Positions 25,495 through 34,222 of a DNA stretch of 64,000 bases are shown one piece after another. Position 1 is the first letter of the stretch; the number at the start of each line of letters is the position of its first letter. Under the pieces are notes generated by a model. The model did no database searches, had not been told where the DNA came from, and saw only the letters and a list, made by a program, of their open reading frames with translations. Both the position numbers and the translations under genes were made by a program. Source of the DNA: an archaeon (GTDB lineage: Archaea > B1Sed10-29 > JAJSAI01); contig JAJSAI010000019.1 of the NCBI GenBank assembly GCA_024274695.1, forward strand, positions 1-64,000, written 5' to 3'.

Positions 25495-25524
25495 AATTTA
25501 AAGGAGTGTGTGATATAATTCCGC

Positions 25525-26565
25525 ATGGAGCCAATAGTTATAGTTGGTGCAGGCCCTGCTGGCCTATCCCTTCATGAGAAACTGTGCGAGTCTGGGATCA
25601 AAAGTTTGATCATAGAGCGTAAGAAAAGCGTTGGAGAATATGGCAATAGGGTAATAAATCTTGATACTTTCAAGTTATTTGGATCTCCTGAAGAAATAAT
25701 CTCTTATAAAATAGATGAAGTCGTGTTTTCTTCCCCTTCTGGTGAAAAGTTACGCGCCAAAAAAGAAAGGGGGTACGTTATTAATAAGAGGGATCTAGAA
25801 TTATGCTTGCTTGATAGGATTTCTGAGCCTAACATAGTATATGGTAAGGCAGTAATAAAATTAAATAAGAAAAAGAAAAAACTTCTTACTTCTGATGGGA
25901 CGATCTTTTCTTATTCTATACTTGTAGGATGCGATGGAGTCCATTCTACAGTACGAAGTTCTGTGACAGATGAACAGATTAAGACAATAAATTGTTACGC
26001 GGAAGAATACGATGGCCAGGAACCCACTACCGTATTCGTAGAACCTGATTTGGCAAAAGGCTTTTATGGTTGGATAATGCCCCTGTCAGATAAGAGAATT
26101 GAGATAGGTATAGGTAGTGTCAACAGAGGAGTTTCCCAAAAAGAACTTTTTCATATCTTGAAAAAAAAACATGGATTAGATAAATATTCTAGGTCACTTA
26201 AGATAACGGGAGGAACACTTCCTGTAGACTTTCTGAAAAGAGAAGTGTATTCTGATATTGTTCTGATAGGGGATGCTAGTGGAGGAGAACCCGCAATGGG
26301 GGGATCACTTCACAAGACTGTTGATGAAGTTAATCTACTTTTCAATATTCTTTCTGAGAAAAAAAATTTAGAGGAGTATGATATCTTATGGAACGGATTT
26401 TTCCTTGAAGAGTTTAAAACTCAAAGAAAACTTAGAAATGCGATTGACTCTGCTACAGAGAAAGATATTGACAAAGTGTTCAAAAAGTTACATAAAAAAA
26501 GATTACCTGATAAGGGGCTCGTTACCACTATATTTAAAGAGATTGCTCTTAATCTTGAAAAGTAA
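25525..26565 (+). CDS. FAD-dependent oxidoreductase, geranylgeranyl reductase type
   Basis: The 346-residue protein starts with the FAD-binding Rossmann motif IVGAGPAGLSLHEKL (about 6-20), has LVGCDGVHSTVR (about 131-142), and later the second FAD motif VLIGDASGGEPAMGGS (about 247-262). This is the geranylgeranyl reductase/BchP/aromatic hydroxylase flavoprotein class. It is about 55 residues shorter than, and clearly distinct from, the standard archaeal reductase at 33014-34222. It opens the AT-rich island and is followed by the V4R protein on the same strand. AAATTTAAA centred 26 bp upstream predicts a leaderless start. Substrate unknown. Confidence 0.82.
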   Translation: MEPIVIVGAGPAGLSLHEKLCESGIKSLIIERKKSVGEYGNRVINLDTFKLFGSPEEIISYKIDEVVFSSPSGEKLRAKKERGYVINKRDLELCLLDRISEPNIVYGKAVIKLNKKKKKLLTSDGTIFSYSILVGCDGVHSTVRSSVTDEQIKTINCYAEEYDGQEPTTVFVEPDLAKGFYGWIMPLSDKRIEIGIGSVNRGVSQKELFHILKKKHGLDKYSRSLKITGGTLPVDFLKREVYSDIVLIGDASGGEPAMGGSLHKTVDEVNLLFNILSEKKNLEEYDILWNGFFLEEFKTQRKLRNAIDSATEKDIDKVFKKLHKKRLPDKGLVTTIFKEIALNLEK

Positions 26566-26600
26566 AACTTTTTAATTTCTTTTAATTCTTTTGAAGAGAT

Positions 26601-27251
26601 ATGTTGACATATCCAGAATTAGTAAAGTTAATGCTTTCTGGGAAAATGAAGCTTTCTTTCGGAGAAATACTATTCCTTGGACATCCTTTTTCTCTGATGC
26701 CGATGTACTTTTACGAAGAACTTACTAAGAGACTTATTGAAGATCCTGAAGAAAGAGAAAAGGTATATTTTGACGCATGGAAAGCGGGGTTTAAGTTTAC
26801 CTTAGATATAGTGAACAAGTACTCTCTAGAAAGCTTTGAAGATAGATACAAACTTGCGATGGACTTGGTGAGCATGTCTGGTTTTGGGGATTATAGAACG
26901 ATTGAATTCTTTCCAGGTTACGCTATTTTCAAGATAATAAACAATCCATTTCCAAAATTATTCTATCCCTCAAATCTTAAAGTTGATCACATTTTGAGAG
27001 GCATTAATGCGGGCGGCGGAACCGTTGTTCATGAAAGAATAATAAATTGTGTTGAATTGGAATGCGCTGCTGAGAACAGTAAATATTGCTTGCATGTGAA
27101 CGGGAGTCAAAAATATTTAGAAGAAAGAATAGAAAATGAAAAAATTCTGGAAGAACAACTTGGAGATATTAAAAATCTTCAAAAGAAACAAGTTTCTTAT
27201 TTGAAAAGGAATTACAAAAAAATATATAAAAAATATTCTATAGAAAAATAA
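26601..27251 (+). CDS. V4R (4-vinyl reductase-like) domain protein
   Basis: In this 216-residue protein, residues about 25-165 resemble the V4R domain of BchJ-like proteins and of small-molecule sensor domains. GGTVVHERIINCVELECAAE is followed by NSKYCLHVNG, which carries the E-x2-C-x7-C pattern seen as zinc ligands in phenol-sensing V4R domains. A charged helix (about 175-216) ends the protein. It may bind a hydrophobic ligand or help reduce one. It is co-directional with the FAD reductase (35-base gap) and overlaps the convergent UbiA gene by 14 bases. Its composition is extremely AT-rich. Confidence 0.65.
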   Translation: MLTYPELVKLMLSGKMKLSFGEILFLGHPFSLMPMYFYEELTKRLIEDPEEREKVYFDAWKAGFKFTLDIVNKYSLESFEDRYKLAMDLVSMSGFGDYRTIEFFPGYAIFKIINNPFPKLFYPSNLKVDHILRGINAGGGTVVHERIINCVELECAAENSKYCLHVNGSQKYLEERIENEKILEEQLGDIKNLQKKQVSYLKRNYKKIYKKYSIEK

Positions 27252-28083
27252 CAAACAATATTAAGAATAATAAAATTATTAAAATTCTTTCATAAGCATA
27301 TACTTTAGTATAATTTTTTTGCCATGTTATTATTAGAGCTAAAATAATAAACAATAAACTAACAAGGGATATCACATGTTGATTAATGATTAATGTAAAT
27401 AATCCTAATAAAAATCCTGAAGAAAGTATCCATTTTCGAACTATTCTCATACCCTTTTTTGTACCATATTTTGTTGCCAAAGTCTTTTTTCCGTATACTG
27501 CATCGTATTTAGCATCTTTGAAGTCTTTAGTTGAGATGAGCGCGGAAATAAATAGCGTTAACAAAAAGAGGTTAACGATGAACTGAAAGCTAATCTGCTC
27601 AGTTAAAATTATTAGTCCCAATACTCCTGTCACAAAAAATGAGCCGTAAGCTAAGGTGATTGGCCCTACAAAAGGAATTCTCGCAAGCCATAGTGAGTAA
27701 GATATCCCTATTATAAGTAGTGAAAGAGCAAGCATTATACCCCAAAATCCTCCCATAACCCCAACAACTAATCCAGAACTCCAGAGTATATACATCACTC
27801 TTTTAGCTTCGTGTATGCTGATTCTTCCAGAGGTAAGAGGTCTGTAGGGCATGCTTTTTTTATCTATCTTGTAATCAATTATATCATTTAGGATTGCTCC
27901 TGCAGAATACATGGAAAAGATGATTGCTGCAGAAATAGCAATTTTTGACCAATCAAATTCCTGAGCAAATGCTGCAGCATAGAACAATGCCAAGAAATAA
28001 ATAAGGCTATTCCAAGGGCGCATAAGGTCTATGAAAGAAAGGATCTTATTTTTGGAGAGTTTTTCGGAAAAGAATTCTTCCAT
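27238..28083 (-). CDS. UbiA-family prenyltransferase
   Basis: The 281-residue, nine-segment membrane protein has the two Asp-rich UbiA motifs: NDIIDYKIDKK (about 66-76) and STKDFKDAKYDAVYGKKTLA (about 184-203). After the first motif, MPYRPLTSGRIS resembles the PYRPxxSG run of (bacterio)chlorophyll synthases more than the usual DRPxPSG of archaeal lipid synthases; that is a short-motif hint, not proof. It would transfer an isoprenyl group to a lipid or aromatic acceptor. It lies 4 bases downstream of the KaiC-like gene, within the AT-rich island. Confidence 0.88.
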   Translation of the reverse strand: MEEFFSEKLSKNKILSFIDLMRPWNSLIYFLALFYAAAFAQEFDWSKIAISAAIIFSMYSAGAILNDIIDYKIDKKSMPYRPLTSGRISIHEAKRVMYILWSSGLVVGVMGGFWGIMLALSLLIIGISYSLWLARIPFVGPITLAYGSFFVTGVLGLIILTEQISFQFIVNLFLLTLFISALISTKDFKDAKYDAVYGKKTLATKYGTKKGMRIVRKWILSSGFLLGLFTLIINQHVISLVSLLFIILALIITWQKNYTKVYAYERILIILLFLILFVIFL

Positions 28084-28087
28084 AATT

Positions 28088-28909
28088 TCACTTTAGTAAC
28101 AGGCTTCTTCCTTTTTCTGTGTTCACAACAATCCCTTTACCTCTTATTATGTCAAATGAGAAAAATGCTTTTTCATGCTGAGTTAGTCTCATCTTTCTGA
28201 TCTGTAAGTTTCGGGAGGACTCTCCTGCAATTCCAGTAAAGTATAGCAGAATTACTCCATCTACCATAAACTCACTGAATGAGTCTCTACTAAGAGACTT
28301 AGAGTCTTCTAGCAATTCTGACGTGATCAGAACACTTGCTTTGGTATCTCTCAATGTTTTGAAGAGTCTCATGAGGATAAATTTGTTTATTAGTTTGTCG
28401 TTTAATGGAAGGGGTATTACAGTATCCTCTACAACGGTATAAGGTGTAGAAATAAAATGAGAAAAAATAGCGTTAAGGTCTCTAATCCCTTTTTGTGAAA
28501 GTATTGTTTCATATTTTTTTGGCAGGACCATAGAATAACTGTCTAACAGGGTTGTGACAGAATCTATCACAACTCTTTTTGGGCCAAACTTTTTACATTC
28601 CTCTTTAATTTTGTTGATCATACAACCCTCTTCAGGATTGAGAGAAATAACACGAAGTTTCTTGGATTTTTCATCTTTTTTCAAGTCTATATTAAACTGT
28701 TTGGCTTGTTGAATTATCATTTCTTCGGATTCTTCAGTGGTAAAGAAAAGAGTTTTCTCATTATTTTCCGCCCCTGCATGTGCATAATGTATGGCAAATG
28801 TTGATTTTCCAGTTCCTGCCCCTCCAGATATGAGAATAATGCTTCCTTGAGGAAACCCTCCTTGTACAAGTTTGTCAAAGCCTTCGACACCTGTTTTTAT
28901 TCTTTTCAT
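28088..28909 (-). CDS. KaiC-like RecA-superfamily ATPase
   Basis: The single-domain protein of about 273 residues has MKRIKTGVEGFDKLVQGGFPQGS at the start, Walker A GGAGTGKST (about 28-36), the paired catalytic Glu in FTTEESEEM (about 56-64) and Walker B RVVIDSVTTLLDS (about 110-122). Archaeal KaiC-like proteins regulate many processes; a clock role cannot be assumed. ATG 28909 is preceded by GGTGGTG; GTG 28918 is an in-frame alternative that fits an upstream AAATTTATTT box for a leaderless start. It is the promoter-proximal gene of a KaiC-UbiA operon. Confidence 0.87.
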   Translation of the reverse strand: MKRIKTGVEGFDKLVQGGFPQGSIILISGGAGTGKSTFAIHYAHAGAENNEKTLFFTTEESEEMIIQQAKQFNIDLKKDEKSKKLRVISLNPEEGCMINKIKEECKKFGPKRVVIDSVTTLLDSYSMVLPKKYETILSQKGIRDLNAIFSHFISTPYTVVEDTVIPLPLNDKLINKFILMRLFKTLRDTKASVLITSELLEDSKSLSRDSFSEFMVDGVILLYFTGIAGESSRNLQIRKMRLTQHEKAFFSFDIIRGKGIVVNTEKGRSLLLK

Positions 28910-28966
28910 AAGCACCACCGCTTATTAACCTCAAAAGATAAATTTATTTAAAACTTTTTTGATTGC

Positions 28967-30274
28967 TCATATGACGATCTCTTCCCCGGGCTCGGGAATG
29001 CTGTTCTGTATTCCCTTCTTTTCCAGGGTCCTGGAAAAGCTCTTCTGTTTCTCTTTCTCCCCGTGAACCAGGAACACCTGCTCCCGCGGATGGTTCTCTT
29101 TTATCCAGTTCAGCAGATCGTTCCTGTCAGCGTGGGCTGAGAGCCTGAGCTGGTGTACCCTGAGCTTTATTTCCACTTCCTCGTCCCCGATGATCACGTT
29201 CCTCGCTCCCTCTGATATCTGTCTTCCGAGAGTGCCTTCGGCCTGGTACCCTACGAGTATGACCGAGTTGTCCTTGTCTCCCGCCAGTTTTTTCAGGTAG
29301 TATACGCTAGGCCCTCCTGTCAGCATCCCGCTCGTGCTGACTATTATCGCCCTCTCTTTCTCCAGCACGTCCCTCCTGTCCTTGGTTCTCGGGGTCTTCC
29401 AGAACCTTGACTTGAATGGATCGTCGTCCGCGAGCAGGATCCTTCTTGGTATTTCCTCTTTTAGCCAGAGGACGTTGTGCCTGTATATCCTGCTCGCCTT
29501 TTTCACCATCCCGTCCGCGTAACCGTGCTCGTTGGAAAGGAATCCTGACCTGACGTAGTTGTCTATGATCATCATGACCTCCTGTCCTCTTCCCACCCCG
29601 AAAACGGGGATGAGCACTTTCCCAGGAGTGCTCCTGATTATTTCGGCCAGTTCCCTTGAAACTGTTTTCAGGCTCGGCAGGAGATCGTCAGGACCAGAAT
29701 AGGTTGACTCTGTTATAAGATAGTCTGTCCTGGGGATCTTTTTCTCCGCCCCGTACAAGAGGTTGGTTTCCCTCGTGTTCATGTCCCCAGTGTAGTACAG
29801 GCTCTTCCGACCCTTTTTCACCCTGAACCCTGCGGCCCCGAGTATGTGTCCTGCGTTGTAAGCGGTGACCTCGAACCCTGCCACCCTGACAGGCTTCTTG
29901 TACTCCAGGAAAGAGAACCTGGACAGGATCTTTTTGACATCGTTCCTGCTGAAGTTAATGTCCTTTTTCGCCACGCCCAGCCTGTAGTAGTCTGCCAGCA
30001 GGACCTGGACGAGGTCAAAGGTCGGCTTGGTGCTGTACACTTTCCCCCTGAACCCGAGCCTTTCCAGGTCAGGCAGGAACCCTGAGTGGTCAAGGTGGGC
30101 GTGGGTCACGAAAACGGCCTTAAGCGACCTCGCAATCCTCTCGTCCAGCAGGGGATACTCTTTAGGGTCTCCTAGTTTGACCCCGCAGTCCAAGAGAATC
30201 CTTTTCCCCTTGTCCTCCAGCATTACCGCCGATCTTCCGACTTCTCCGCAGGCTCCCAGAAAACAGACCTTCAT
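28967..30274 (-). CDS. beta-CASP metallo-beta-lactamase RNase (aCPSF2 type, no KH domains)
   Basis: The 435-residue protein has the MBL motifs THAHLDHSG (about 57-65), AGHILGAAG (about 146-154), YTGDMN and the beta-CASP signatures LIPVFGVGRGQE, STSGMLTGGPSVYYL and HQLRLSAHADRNDL. It lacks the N-terminal KH extension of aCPSF1, which is encoded separately at 57.0 kb. Such enzymes have 5'-3' exo- and/or endoribonuclease activity in RNA processing and decay. ATG 30274 lies about 29 bp from a TTTAAA element shared with the divergent gene. Confidence 0.92.
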   Translation of the reverse strand: MKVCFLGACGEVGRSAVMLEDKGKRILLDCGVKLGDPKEYPLLDERIARSLKAVFVTHAHLDHSGFLPDLERLGFRGKVYSTKPTFDLVQVLLADYYRLGVAKKDINFSRNDVKKILSRFSFLEYKKPVRVAGFEVTAYNAGHILGAAGFRVKKGRKSLYYTGDMNTRETNLLYGAEKKIPRTDYLITESTYSGPDDLLPSLKTVSRELAEIIRSTPGKVLIPVFGVGRGQEVMMIIDNYVRSGFLSNEHGYADGMVKKASRIYRHNVLWLKEEIPRRILLADDDPFKSRFWKTPRTKDRRDVLEKERAIIVSTSGMLTGGPSVYYLKKLAGDKDNSVILVGYQAEGTLGRQISEGARNVIIGDEEVEIKLRVHQLRLSAHADRNDLLNWIKENHPREQVFLVHGEKEKQKSFSRTLEKKGIQNSIPEPGEEIVI

Positions 30275-33017: not shown

Positions 33018-34222
33018 GACAATGGCTTCAGGAAGAGTATGATGTCATAGTCGTCGGGGCCGGGCCCGCTGGAAGCACTGCCGCGAGAGAGTGCGCTAAA
33101 CGGGGCCTGAAAACCCTGGTCCTTGAAAAAAGACAGGAGGTAGGAGTCCCGAAAAGGTGCGGGGAAGGACTAGGAGAAGGCTGGTGCAGGATAGCAGGAA
33201 TAACCCCTGACCCGAAGTGGGCGAGGTACGAAATGCACGGGGCAGTGCTCTGGTCCCCCTCCGGCAAAAAAGTGGTGATACCCACGCCCACGAAAGGCTG
33301 GATAATAGAAAGAAGAGTCTTCGACAAGTGGCTGGCCGAGAAAGCGGTCATGGCAGGAGCGAGGATGATAACCAAGGCAAGAGTCATAGGAGTCATAAAA
33401 GAAGAAGACACAGTAAAGGGTGTGATCGTGGAAACCCCTGACGGGGACTTCGAAGTCATGGCAAAGATAGTGATAGCCGCTGACGGGGTTGACAGCAAGA
33501 CCGCAAAGTATGCTGGGCTTAACACAGTAAACCCCGCCACCGAAATAGACTCAGGGTACCAGTACGAGATGGTCGGTCTCAAGATCCCAGAGCCCACGGA
33601 CATGATACACCTGTACTTCGGGTGGGACGTTGCCCCCAGGGGATACGTCTGGATATTCCCGAAAGGACCTGACCACGCGAACGTGGGAATAGGGATAGGC
33701 GGGCACATTGACAAGGGAACCGCAAAAGAATACCTTGACAGGTTCATAGAGTCCCATCCCGAAATCTTTGAGAACGCTGGGATAGTAGAAGTGAACGCGG
33801 GAGGAATCCCTGTAGGCGCTCCCCTGAAAAAACCGTACGCGAACGGCCTGCTCGTGATAGGAGACGCCGCGCACATGGTCAACCCCATACACGGCGGAGG
33901 AATAGGCACTGGCATGGAAGCAGGAATACTCGCGGCAGAGATAGCTGAAAAAGCAGTGAGGTCCGGCAATGTTTCAGAAGACGTCCTGAAAGAGTTCGCG
34001 GAAAAGTGGTACGAGAAGAGAGGAAACCAGTTGCTCCAGGTGCTCAAGGTCAGGAAGTTCTTCGAAGACCTCACGGACCAGGACATGGAAAAACTAGCGG
34101 ACATACTGGACGACAAACAGCTCCTGCTGGACTTCGCGGACGGCAGGAGGACAGCCGCGTTCCTGAAGTTCCTGGCCAAAGCGCCCAGGATCGCGCTGAA
34201 GGCGGCAAAGCACCTCAAGTGA
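33014..34222 (+). CDS. geranylgeranyl reductase of archaeal lipid synthesis
   Basis: The 402-residue protein has the FAD motif VIVVGAGPAGSTAAREC (about 11-27), the KRCGEGLGEG catalytic-loop Cys motif (about 48-57), and GDAAHMVNPIHGGGIGTG (about 282-299). This is the archaeal digeranylgeranylglycerophospholipid reductase family, which saturates the isoprenoid chains of membrane lipids. I use ATG 33014, which overlaps the ferredoxin stop; an upstream in-frame ATG at 32951 lies inside the ferredoxin gene and gives a non-family extension. Ferredoxin from the same operon probably supplies electrons. Confidence 0.93.
   Translation: MRQWLQEEYDVIVVGAGPAGSTAARECAKRGLKTLVLEKRQEVGVPKRCGEGLGEGWCRIAGITPDPKWARYEMHGAVLWSPSGKKVVIPTPTKGWIIERRVFDKWLAEKAVMAGARMITKARVIGVIKEEDTVKGVIVETPDGDFEVMAKIVIAADGVDSKTAKYAGLNTVNPATEIDSGYQYEMVGLKIPEPTDMIHLYFGWDVAPRGYVWIFPKGPDHANVGIGIGGHIDKGTAKEYLDRFIESHPEIFENAGIVEVNAGGIPVGAPLKKPYANGLLVIGDAAHMVNPIHGGGIGTGMEAGILAAEIAEKAVRSGNVSEDVLKEFAEKWYEKRGNQLLQVLKVRKFFEDLTDQDMEKLADILDDKQLLLDFADGRRTAAFLKFLAKAPRIALKAAKHLK

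Follow-up and report, generated by a model that had tools for sequence, protein, structure and literature searches.

Proteins that carry the V4R domain (PF02830) include MJ1460, the phenol sensors MopR and DmpR, and BchJ, and the domain is related to Bet3. Here we describe a V4R protein encoded in an AT-rich island of an archaeal genome, where its gene lies beside genes for a KaiC-like ATPase, a UbiA-superfamily prenyltransferase and a flavoprotein of the geranylgeranyl reductase (GGR) superfamily. The island is located in positions 1 to 64,000 of contig JAJSAI010000019.1 (assembly GCA_024274695.1, lineage B1Sed10-29), a stretch hereafter called the window, which corresponds to contig 14 of an 825-kb host genome that is 91% complete. 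Hydrophobic compounds are the presumed ligands of V4R domains (PMC2253512), and archaeal KaiC proteins have been proposed to act as general signalling hubs (Makarova, Galperin & Koonin 2017, as cited in PMC5847659). We consider it reasonably probable that the island encodes an isoprenoid side pathway that is regulated by its KaiC and V4R proteins.

The four proteins can be compared with several described systems. Known V4R proteins share the GxG and E..C.......C signature and the V4R profile with the island protein, which differs in being a long variant with a C-terminal extension that is co-inherited with a prenyl enzyme. As cited in PMC5847659, the KaiC hubs likewise combine a KaiC-superfamily ATPase of one domain with an adjacent putative sensor domain and are, like the island KaiC, archaeal and patchily distributed with many paralogues. 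However, the subfamily of the island KaiC has an insert that follows Walker B, and the island KaiC is tied to V4R and prenyl-diphosphate enzymes. Digeranylgeranylglyceryl phosphate (DGGGP) synthase, an archaeal UbiA protein (PDB 6m31), has the superfamily and both Asp-rich motifs in common with the island UbiA, but the latter lies outside the DGGGP synthase clade and scores below the NCBIfam cut-offs, and the host has a separate gene of the DGGGP synthase type. Similarly, GGRs of the digeranylgeranylglycerophospholipid-reductase and menaquinone-reductase types share an FAD Rossmann fold and a YxWxxP-type catalytic segment with the island flavoprotein, which is shorter (346 aa) and belongs to another clade than the GGR that the host encodes at 33 kb. 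The chlorophyll enzymes BchG/ChlG and BchP/ChlP are also members of the UbiA and GGR superfamilies, whereas the island proteins score far under the respective cut-offs, fall in other clades, carry another motif and are not accompanied by the tetrapyrrole genes sought.

The AT-rich island and its four proteins

The island (25510-28965, or 25.5-28.97 kb) carries four intact genes arranged as two facing tandem pairs, with the FAD and V4R genes reading rightward (+) and the KaiC and UbiA genes reading leftward (-). The 3' ends of the V4R and UbiA genes share 14 bp. The features are as follows.

25496..25524, + strand: interval containing a TATA-like box, TTTAAA, about 25 bp upstream of the FAD gene start, read by eye
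25525..26565, + strand: FAD-dependent reductase of the GGR superfamily, 346 aa, with matches to TIGR02032 and PF01494
26601..27251, + strand: V4R-domain protein, 216 aa, of the long core type and bearing a C-terminal extension, assigned by a family-level profile
27238..28083, - strand: UbiA-superfamily membrane prenyltransferase, 281 aa, PF01040 E=2e-31
28088..28918, - strand: KaiC-like ATPase of a single domain, 276 aa, with an insert following Walker B, PF06745 E=1e-50
28919..28960, - strand: interval containing a TATA-like box, TTTTAAATAAATTTA, about 28 bp upstream of the KaiC gene start, read by eye

The TTTAAA box probably serves the FAD-V4R pair as a leaderless promoter, and the TTTTAAATAAATTTA box is the probable promoter of the KaiC-UbiA pair.

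The GC content of the island is 34.3%, compared with 53.3% in the rest of the window, a drop of 19 points with sharp edges on both sides. This break is far beyond chance, because same-sized segments elsewhere in the window (mean 53.3%, SD 1.4%) never fall below 50.6%. GC content at third codon positions (GC3) is ~30% in all four genes, including those for soluble proteins, and 58-75% in the neighbouring genes examined. An earlier note on this DNA had described an AT-rich island of four genes from these families, including one for a KaiC-like regulator. That description holds for the location, the intact open reading frames (ORFs), the composition break and the family assignments, and the KaiC gene recurs beside V4R at other loci.

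Profile searches place the FAD protein in the FAD_binding_3/GG-red superfamily. Because its score for TIGR02032 (103.7 bits) is below the cut-off of 158.8, we regard it as a divergent member, which nevertheless carries the GxGxxG, YxWxxP and GDA signatures of the GGR superfamily (GxGxxG, YGWIMP and GDASGG in this protein). In phylogenetic trees it groups with the FAD proteins of locus L016 and genome G004 (support 100/99), both of which are encoded beside UbiA genes; labels beginning with G and L denote genomes and loci throughout the analysis. L016 (5644-7986), from a metagenome-assembled genome (MAG) of Euryarchaeota, is itself an AT-rich block (36% in 60% GC) at a contig end, and it contains genes for an SMR-type transporter, the FAD protein and a UbiA homologue. 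The FAD proteins of such clusters fall into at least three clades overall, and therefore flavoproteins have been recruited on more than one occasion. The island FAD gene has an ancestry different from that of its V4R, UbiA and KaiC neighbours.

The island V4R protein by itself gives no Pfam match, to PF02830 or otherwise. Its assignment comes from the family: PF02830 is recognised in eight of 12 aligned members, and the family profile matches the structures of MJ1460 (E=3e-7) and MopR (1e-5). With nine relatives it shares the invariant residues E152xxC155...C163, GxG and GGG.

The UbiA protein matches PF01040 with 109.6 bits over a cut-off of 34.2 (E=2e-31) and has the two Asp-rich motifs of the superfamily, NDxxDxxxD and KDxxDxxxD (KDFKDAKYD). 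It groups with the UbiA proteins of five KaiC-V4R operons of the G037 type (99/98). The KaiC protein matches PF06745 with 172 bits in a split match (E=1e-50) and carries Walker A (GGAGTGKST) and Walker B (D119-S120) motifs; thus, the catalytic motifs are intact in the UbiA, FAD and KaiC proteins. It does not have the two domains of the circadian-clock KaiC, being a single domain of 276 aa, and KaiA and KaiB were not searched for. Phylogenetically it belongs to the same wider subfamily as the V4R-linked KaiCs, all examined members of which have the insert after Walker B. Most V4R-linked KaiCs of the core type terminate in a hydrophobic residue followed by Lys, which is possibly a docking tail.

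Recurrence of KaiC, V4R and a prenyl enzyme

Archaeal genomes were searched for V4R genes and the neighbourhoods of the hits were inspected, yielding 24 V4R-centred loci in which adjacent KaiC genes and nearby prenyl enzymes were counted by hand. A KaiC gene of the same subfamily adjoins V4R in 20 of the 24 loci, and a prenyl-diphosphate enzyme is encoded within ~5 kb in 18 of them. These enzymes comprise UbiA proteins, DDxxD proteins resembling terpene synthases (TPS-like), squalene synthase/phytoene synthase-like proteins (PF00494), cis-prenyltransferases (PF01255) and trans-isoprenyl diphosphate synthases (trans-IPPS). With the host's own genome excluded, UbiA genes occur within 3 kb of V4R six times, compared with 0.48 expected (P=1e-5). 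KaiC and V4R side by side are a recurring gene set across small-genome archaea.

The pattern is sharpest among the 15 core loci, whose V4R is of the same long type as that of the island. KaiC is adjacent in all 15, together with either UbiA (seven loci) or a TPS-like gene (eight loci), and a GGR-type FAD gene is present in eight. The first ten core loci all fit this description, as did the five others (5/5) that came from a further search within the phylum of G037 after the pattern had been stated. All four genes of the island are found together in G037, G129, G394, G396 and G446; G188 has them as well, its V4R being shorter. The earlier note had made co-occurrence elsewhere both a check and a potential refutation of its proposal, and these six other archaeal genomes, from five families, bear it out. 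The association of KaiC, V4R and a prenyl enzyme is likely to be new, with Makarova 2017 taken as it is cited in PMC5847659.

The TPS-like family (~280-320 aa) occupies the UbiA slot at L018, L020, L021, L022, L058, L060, L061 and L158. Its assignment is based on DDxxD and KDxxDxxxD motifs together with a marginal Pfam match; profile comparison did not demonstrate homology to trans-IPPS (hhalign probability 3%), and the best match in the PDB had E=0.05. This DDxxD helical family is apparently undescribed in archaea. Several loci vary the theme. In L159, L162 and L022, a PHP-domain gene and an additional, short V4R gene recur a few kb from the core locus, in some places with a small winged-helix gene. 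A second subtype (L106, L107 and L108) combines KaiC and UbiA with a 336-aa tandem V4R-like protein that lacks a Pfam match, and variably adds an FAD reductase, a homocitrate-synthase-like gene or a radical-SAM gene.

The type of V4R follows the type of prenyl enzyme. A single change suffices to split UbiA-type from TPS-type loci in the V4R phylogeny, in which the island protein falls inside the UbiA-type clade (98/98), whereas the KaiC tree needs three changes and monophyly of the UbiA type is rejected for KaiC (p-AU 0.02). In family f48, the two loci have KaiC proteins that are 65% identical and FAD proteins that are 44% identical, but their V4R proteins are only 29% identical and their third genes are unrelated. 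Therefore, V4R and the enzyme were exchanged together, a finding more readily explained if V4R recognises the enzyme or the lipid it handles.

Host lipid genes and the origin of the island

Two genes to the right of the island bear on its relation to the host.

28967..30274, - strand: host-type beta-CASP nuclease at the right flank, syntenic in relatives G017 and G002
33029..34222, + strand: host GGR of the digeranylgeranylglycerophospholipid-reductase type, not part of the island, NF041160 280.8 bits, TIGR02032 246.6 bits over a cut-off of 158.8

The latter gene, also syntenic in relatives, is the normal lipid GGR that the earlier note had placed at 33 kb, as its two profile scores attest. 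The host also has its own geranylgeranylglyceryl phosphate synthase and, on contig 12, a UbiA gene of the DGGGP synthase type. Because these three genes are separate from the island, assembly of the core lipids does not require it, unless an in-frame TAG in the contig-12 gene is both real and disabling. This gene (G000 contig 12 8076-8747, -, equivalent to L103 6033-6808) contains one TAG codon (...FLFG*AASAG...). Since the frame stays conserved past this codon, the TAG probably stems from a MAG error or a recent mutation, with readthrough as a further candidate. Recoding of TAG in this host was considered unlikely, given that 4 of the window's 43 long ORFs terminate with it. The contig-12 gene adjoins a KaiC-like gene, and the same arrangement is seen in G003 (L104).

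The block of beta-CASP, coiled-coil, GGR and rhomboid genes to the right of the island is kept in G017 and G002, which lack the island and have a DHH phosphoesterase in its place. In addition, the island KaiC, V4R and UbiA proteins are nearest in trees to those of another phylum. Together with the composition, the synteny break and tree positions favour acquisition from an AT-rich archaeon, and on these grounds the four genes were probably gained horizontally as a block. A competing account of the origin, that this is an old resident cluster with a low GC due to relaxed or membrane-protein composition, draws on the GC content of related clusters, which is below that of the flanking DNA in 22 of 24 cases, and on FAD and V4R homologues known within the same order. 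We consider this rather improbable: the related clusters usually differ from their flanks by 2-9 points, compared with the sharp 19-point drop and uniform GC3 of ~30% seen here, and neither the island-less relatives with conserved right-hand synteny nor the affinity of three proteins to another phylum fits a resident cluster.

A viral or plasmid source was examined and rejected. Viral contigs yielded no confirmed V4R or FAD relatives, plasmids yielded no UbiA relatives and only distant FAD/BchP-type matches, PHROG gave no match except to generic KaiC/helicase entries, and the island edges have no tRNA or terminal repeats. The horizontally gained pathway put forward in the earlier note is plausible, in that composition, synteny and tree position agree, but the search turned up neither a donor nor a mobile element (no integrase), and the history of the FAD gene differs from that of the other three. 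A beta-CASP nuclease gene also lies directly upstream of KaiC in L162 (7423-9748), as in the window (28088-30274), where the gene belongs to the host synteny; the shared position is possibly a coincidence or a recombination target.

Proposed function and its alternatives

In the pathway we favour, the UbiA protein would transfer a geranylgeranyl-type chain from geranylgeranyl diphosphate to a small acceptor in the membrane, or would cyclise the chain, and the flavoprotein would saturate its double bonds. The V4R protein would bind the lipophilic substrate or product, and a KaiC ring, whose ATP state would depend on V4R occupancy, would convert that occupancy to a signal or gate the enzyme. Several points weigh against this proposal. 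We infer both the product and the regulatory step, and ligand binding by V4R and gating by KaiC are predicted from what is known of these families (PMC2253512; for KaiC, the proposal as cited in PMC5847659). The chemistry may differ between loci, because the FAD and UbiA genes of the clusters fall in several clades; co-expression is not guaranteed, because the pair with the FAD gene is encoded on one strand and the KaiC-UbiA pair on the other; and three V4R-KaiC loci (L023, L066 and L070) have no nearby prenyl enzyme.

The alternative that retains the most plausibility, although we regard it as unlikely, is a second or replacement set for membrane lipids, in which the UbiA protein is a DGGGP synthase, the FAD protein is a lipid GGR, and V4R and KaiC tune membrane composition. 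The solved structure closest to the island UbiA is indeed the M. jannaschii DGGGP synthase (E=1e-10), the FAD protein belongs to the GGR superfamily, and the TAG in the host's own gene could create a need for such a set. However, that TAG is likely an error or recent mutation given the conserved frame beyond it, and the island UbiA lies outside the well-supported DGGGP synthase clade (96/94) that holds the host's contig-12 copy. Moreover, the cluster-bearing genomes G003, G129 and G298 retain a separate UbiA of that clade, and half of the core loci have a soluble TPS-like third gene that cannot be a DGGGP synthase. A plain duplicate of DGGGP synthase and GGR is likewise disfavoured by the position of the island protein in the UbiA tree. 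The island UbiA and FAD proteins both fall outside lipid clades; the earlier note had named the opposite outcome as evidence against its suggestion of isoprenoid chemistry apart from the core lipid pathway, which thus survives. It is considerably less probable that KaiC and V4R form a general signalling pair that lies next to lipid genes by chance in AT-rich regions. KaiC-like genes are numerous, with 15 strong matches in the host, and the hub proposal cited in PMC5847659 would accommodate such a pair, but chance does not account for a prenyl enzyme in all 15 core loci, five of them found after prediction, for the proximity of UbiA to V4R (P=1e-5), or for V4R and the enzyme type changing together while KaiC does not.

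The earlier note had also pointed out that the flavoprotein, V4R and UbiA families are those of BchP, BchJ and BchG. Taken literally, this likeness would make the island a chlorophyll-type terminal pathway acting on a tetrapyrrole. The same three superfamilies are present, the island UbiA is weakly ChlG/BchG-like, and an archaeal BchG has been reported (Meng et al. 2009, as cited in PMC5359579). However, the UbiA protein reaches 50.6 of the 313 bits required for ChlG and 44.2 of the 212 required for BchG, whereas a true Roseobacter BchG used as a control scores 411 and 372, and the FAD protein scores 74 bits for BchP (cut-off 343) and forms a separate clade. These scores are 4-8 times under the cut-offs, and neither protein groups with Roseobacter BchG or BchP in trees. 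The ChlG/BchG motif NDxxDRxxDxxxxxxR (PMC9066304) reads NDIIDYKIDKKSMPYR in the island UbiA, with R replaced by Y. Furthermore, none of the 19 genomes of the class has HemB, and the 91%-complete host lacks CobN/BchH (Mg-chelatase), in searches whose positive controls worked. The scores, trees, motif and missing tetrapyrrole genes lead us to reject the chlorophyll reading, which we regard as extremely improbable, and a special link to BchP, BchJ and BchG is not supported.

The regulated isoprenoid side pathway may be one instance of something broader. We advance, more tentatively, the possibility that KaiC and V4R constitute a widespread archaeal control module for isoprenoid secondary metabolism, in which V4R is matched to the prenyl enzyme (UbiA or the TPS-like family) and whose small-genome carriers would make uncharacterised prenylated or terpenoid lipids with KaiC in control. 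Archaeal KaiC-like ATPases are abundant, and the archaellum and gas vesicles are the systems that they are known to control. A conserved association of one KaiC subfamily with a domain that binds lipids and with enzymes acting on prenyl diphosphates would provide a concrete, testable output, isoprenoid metabolism. The gene set also suggests that reduced archaea retain specialised lipid or terpenoid chemistry.

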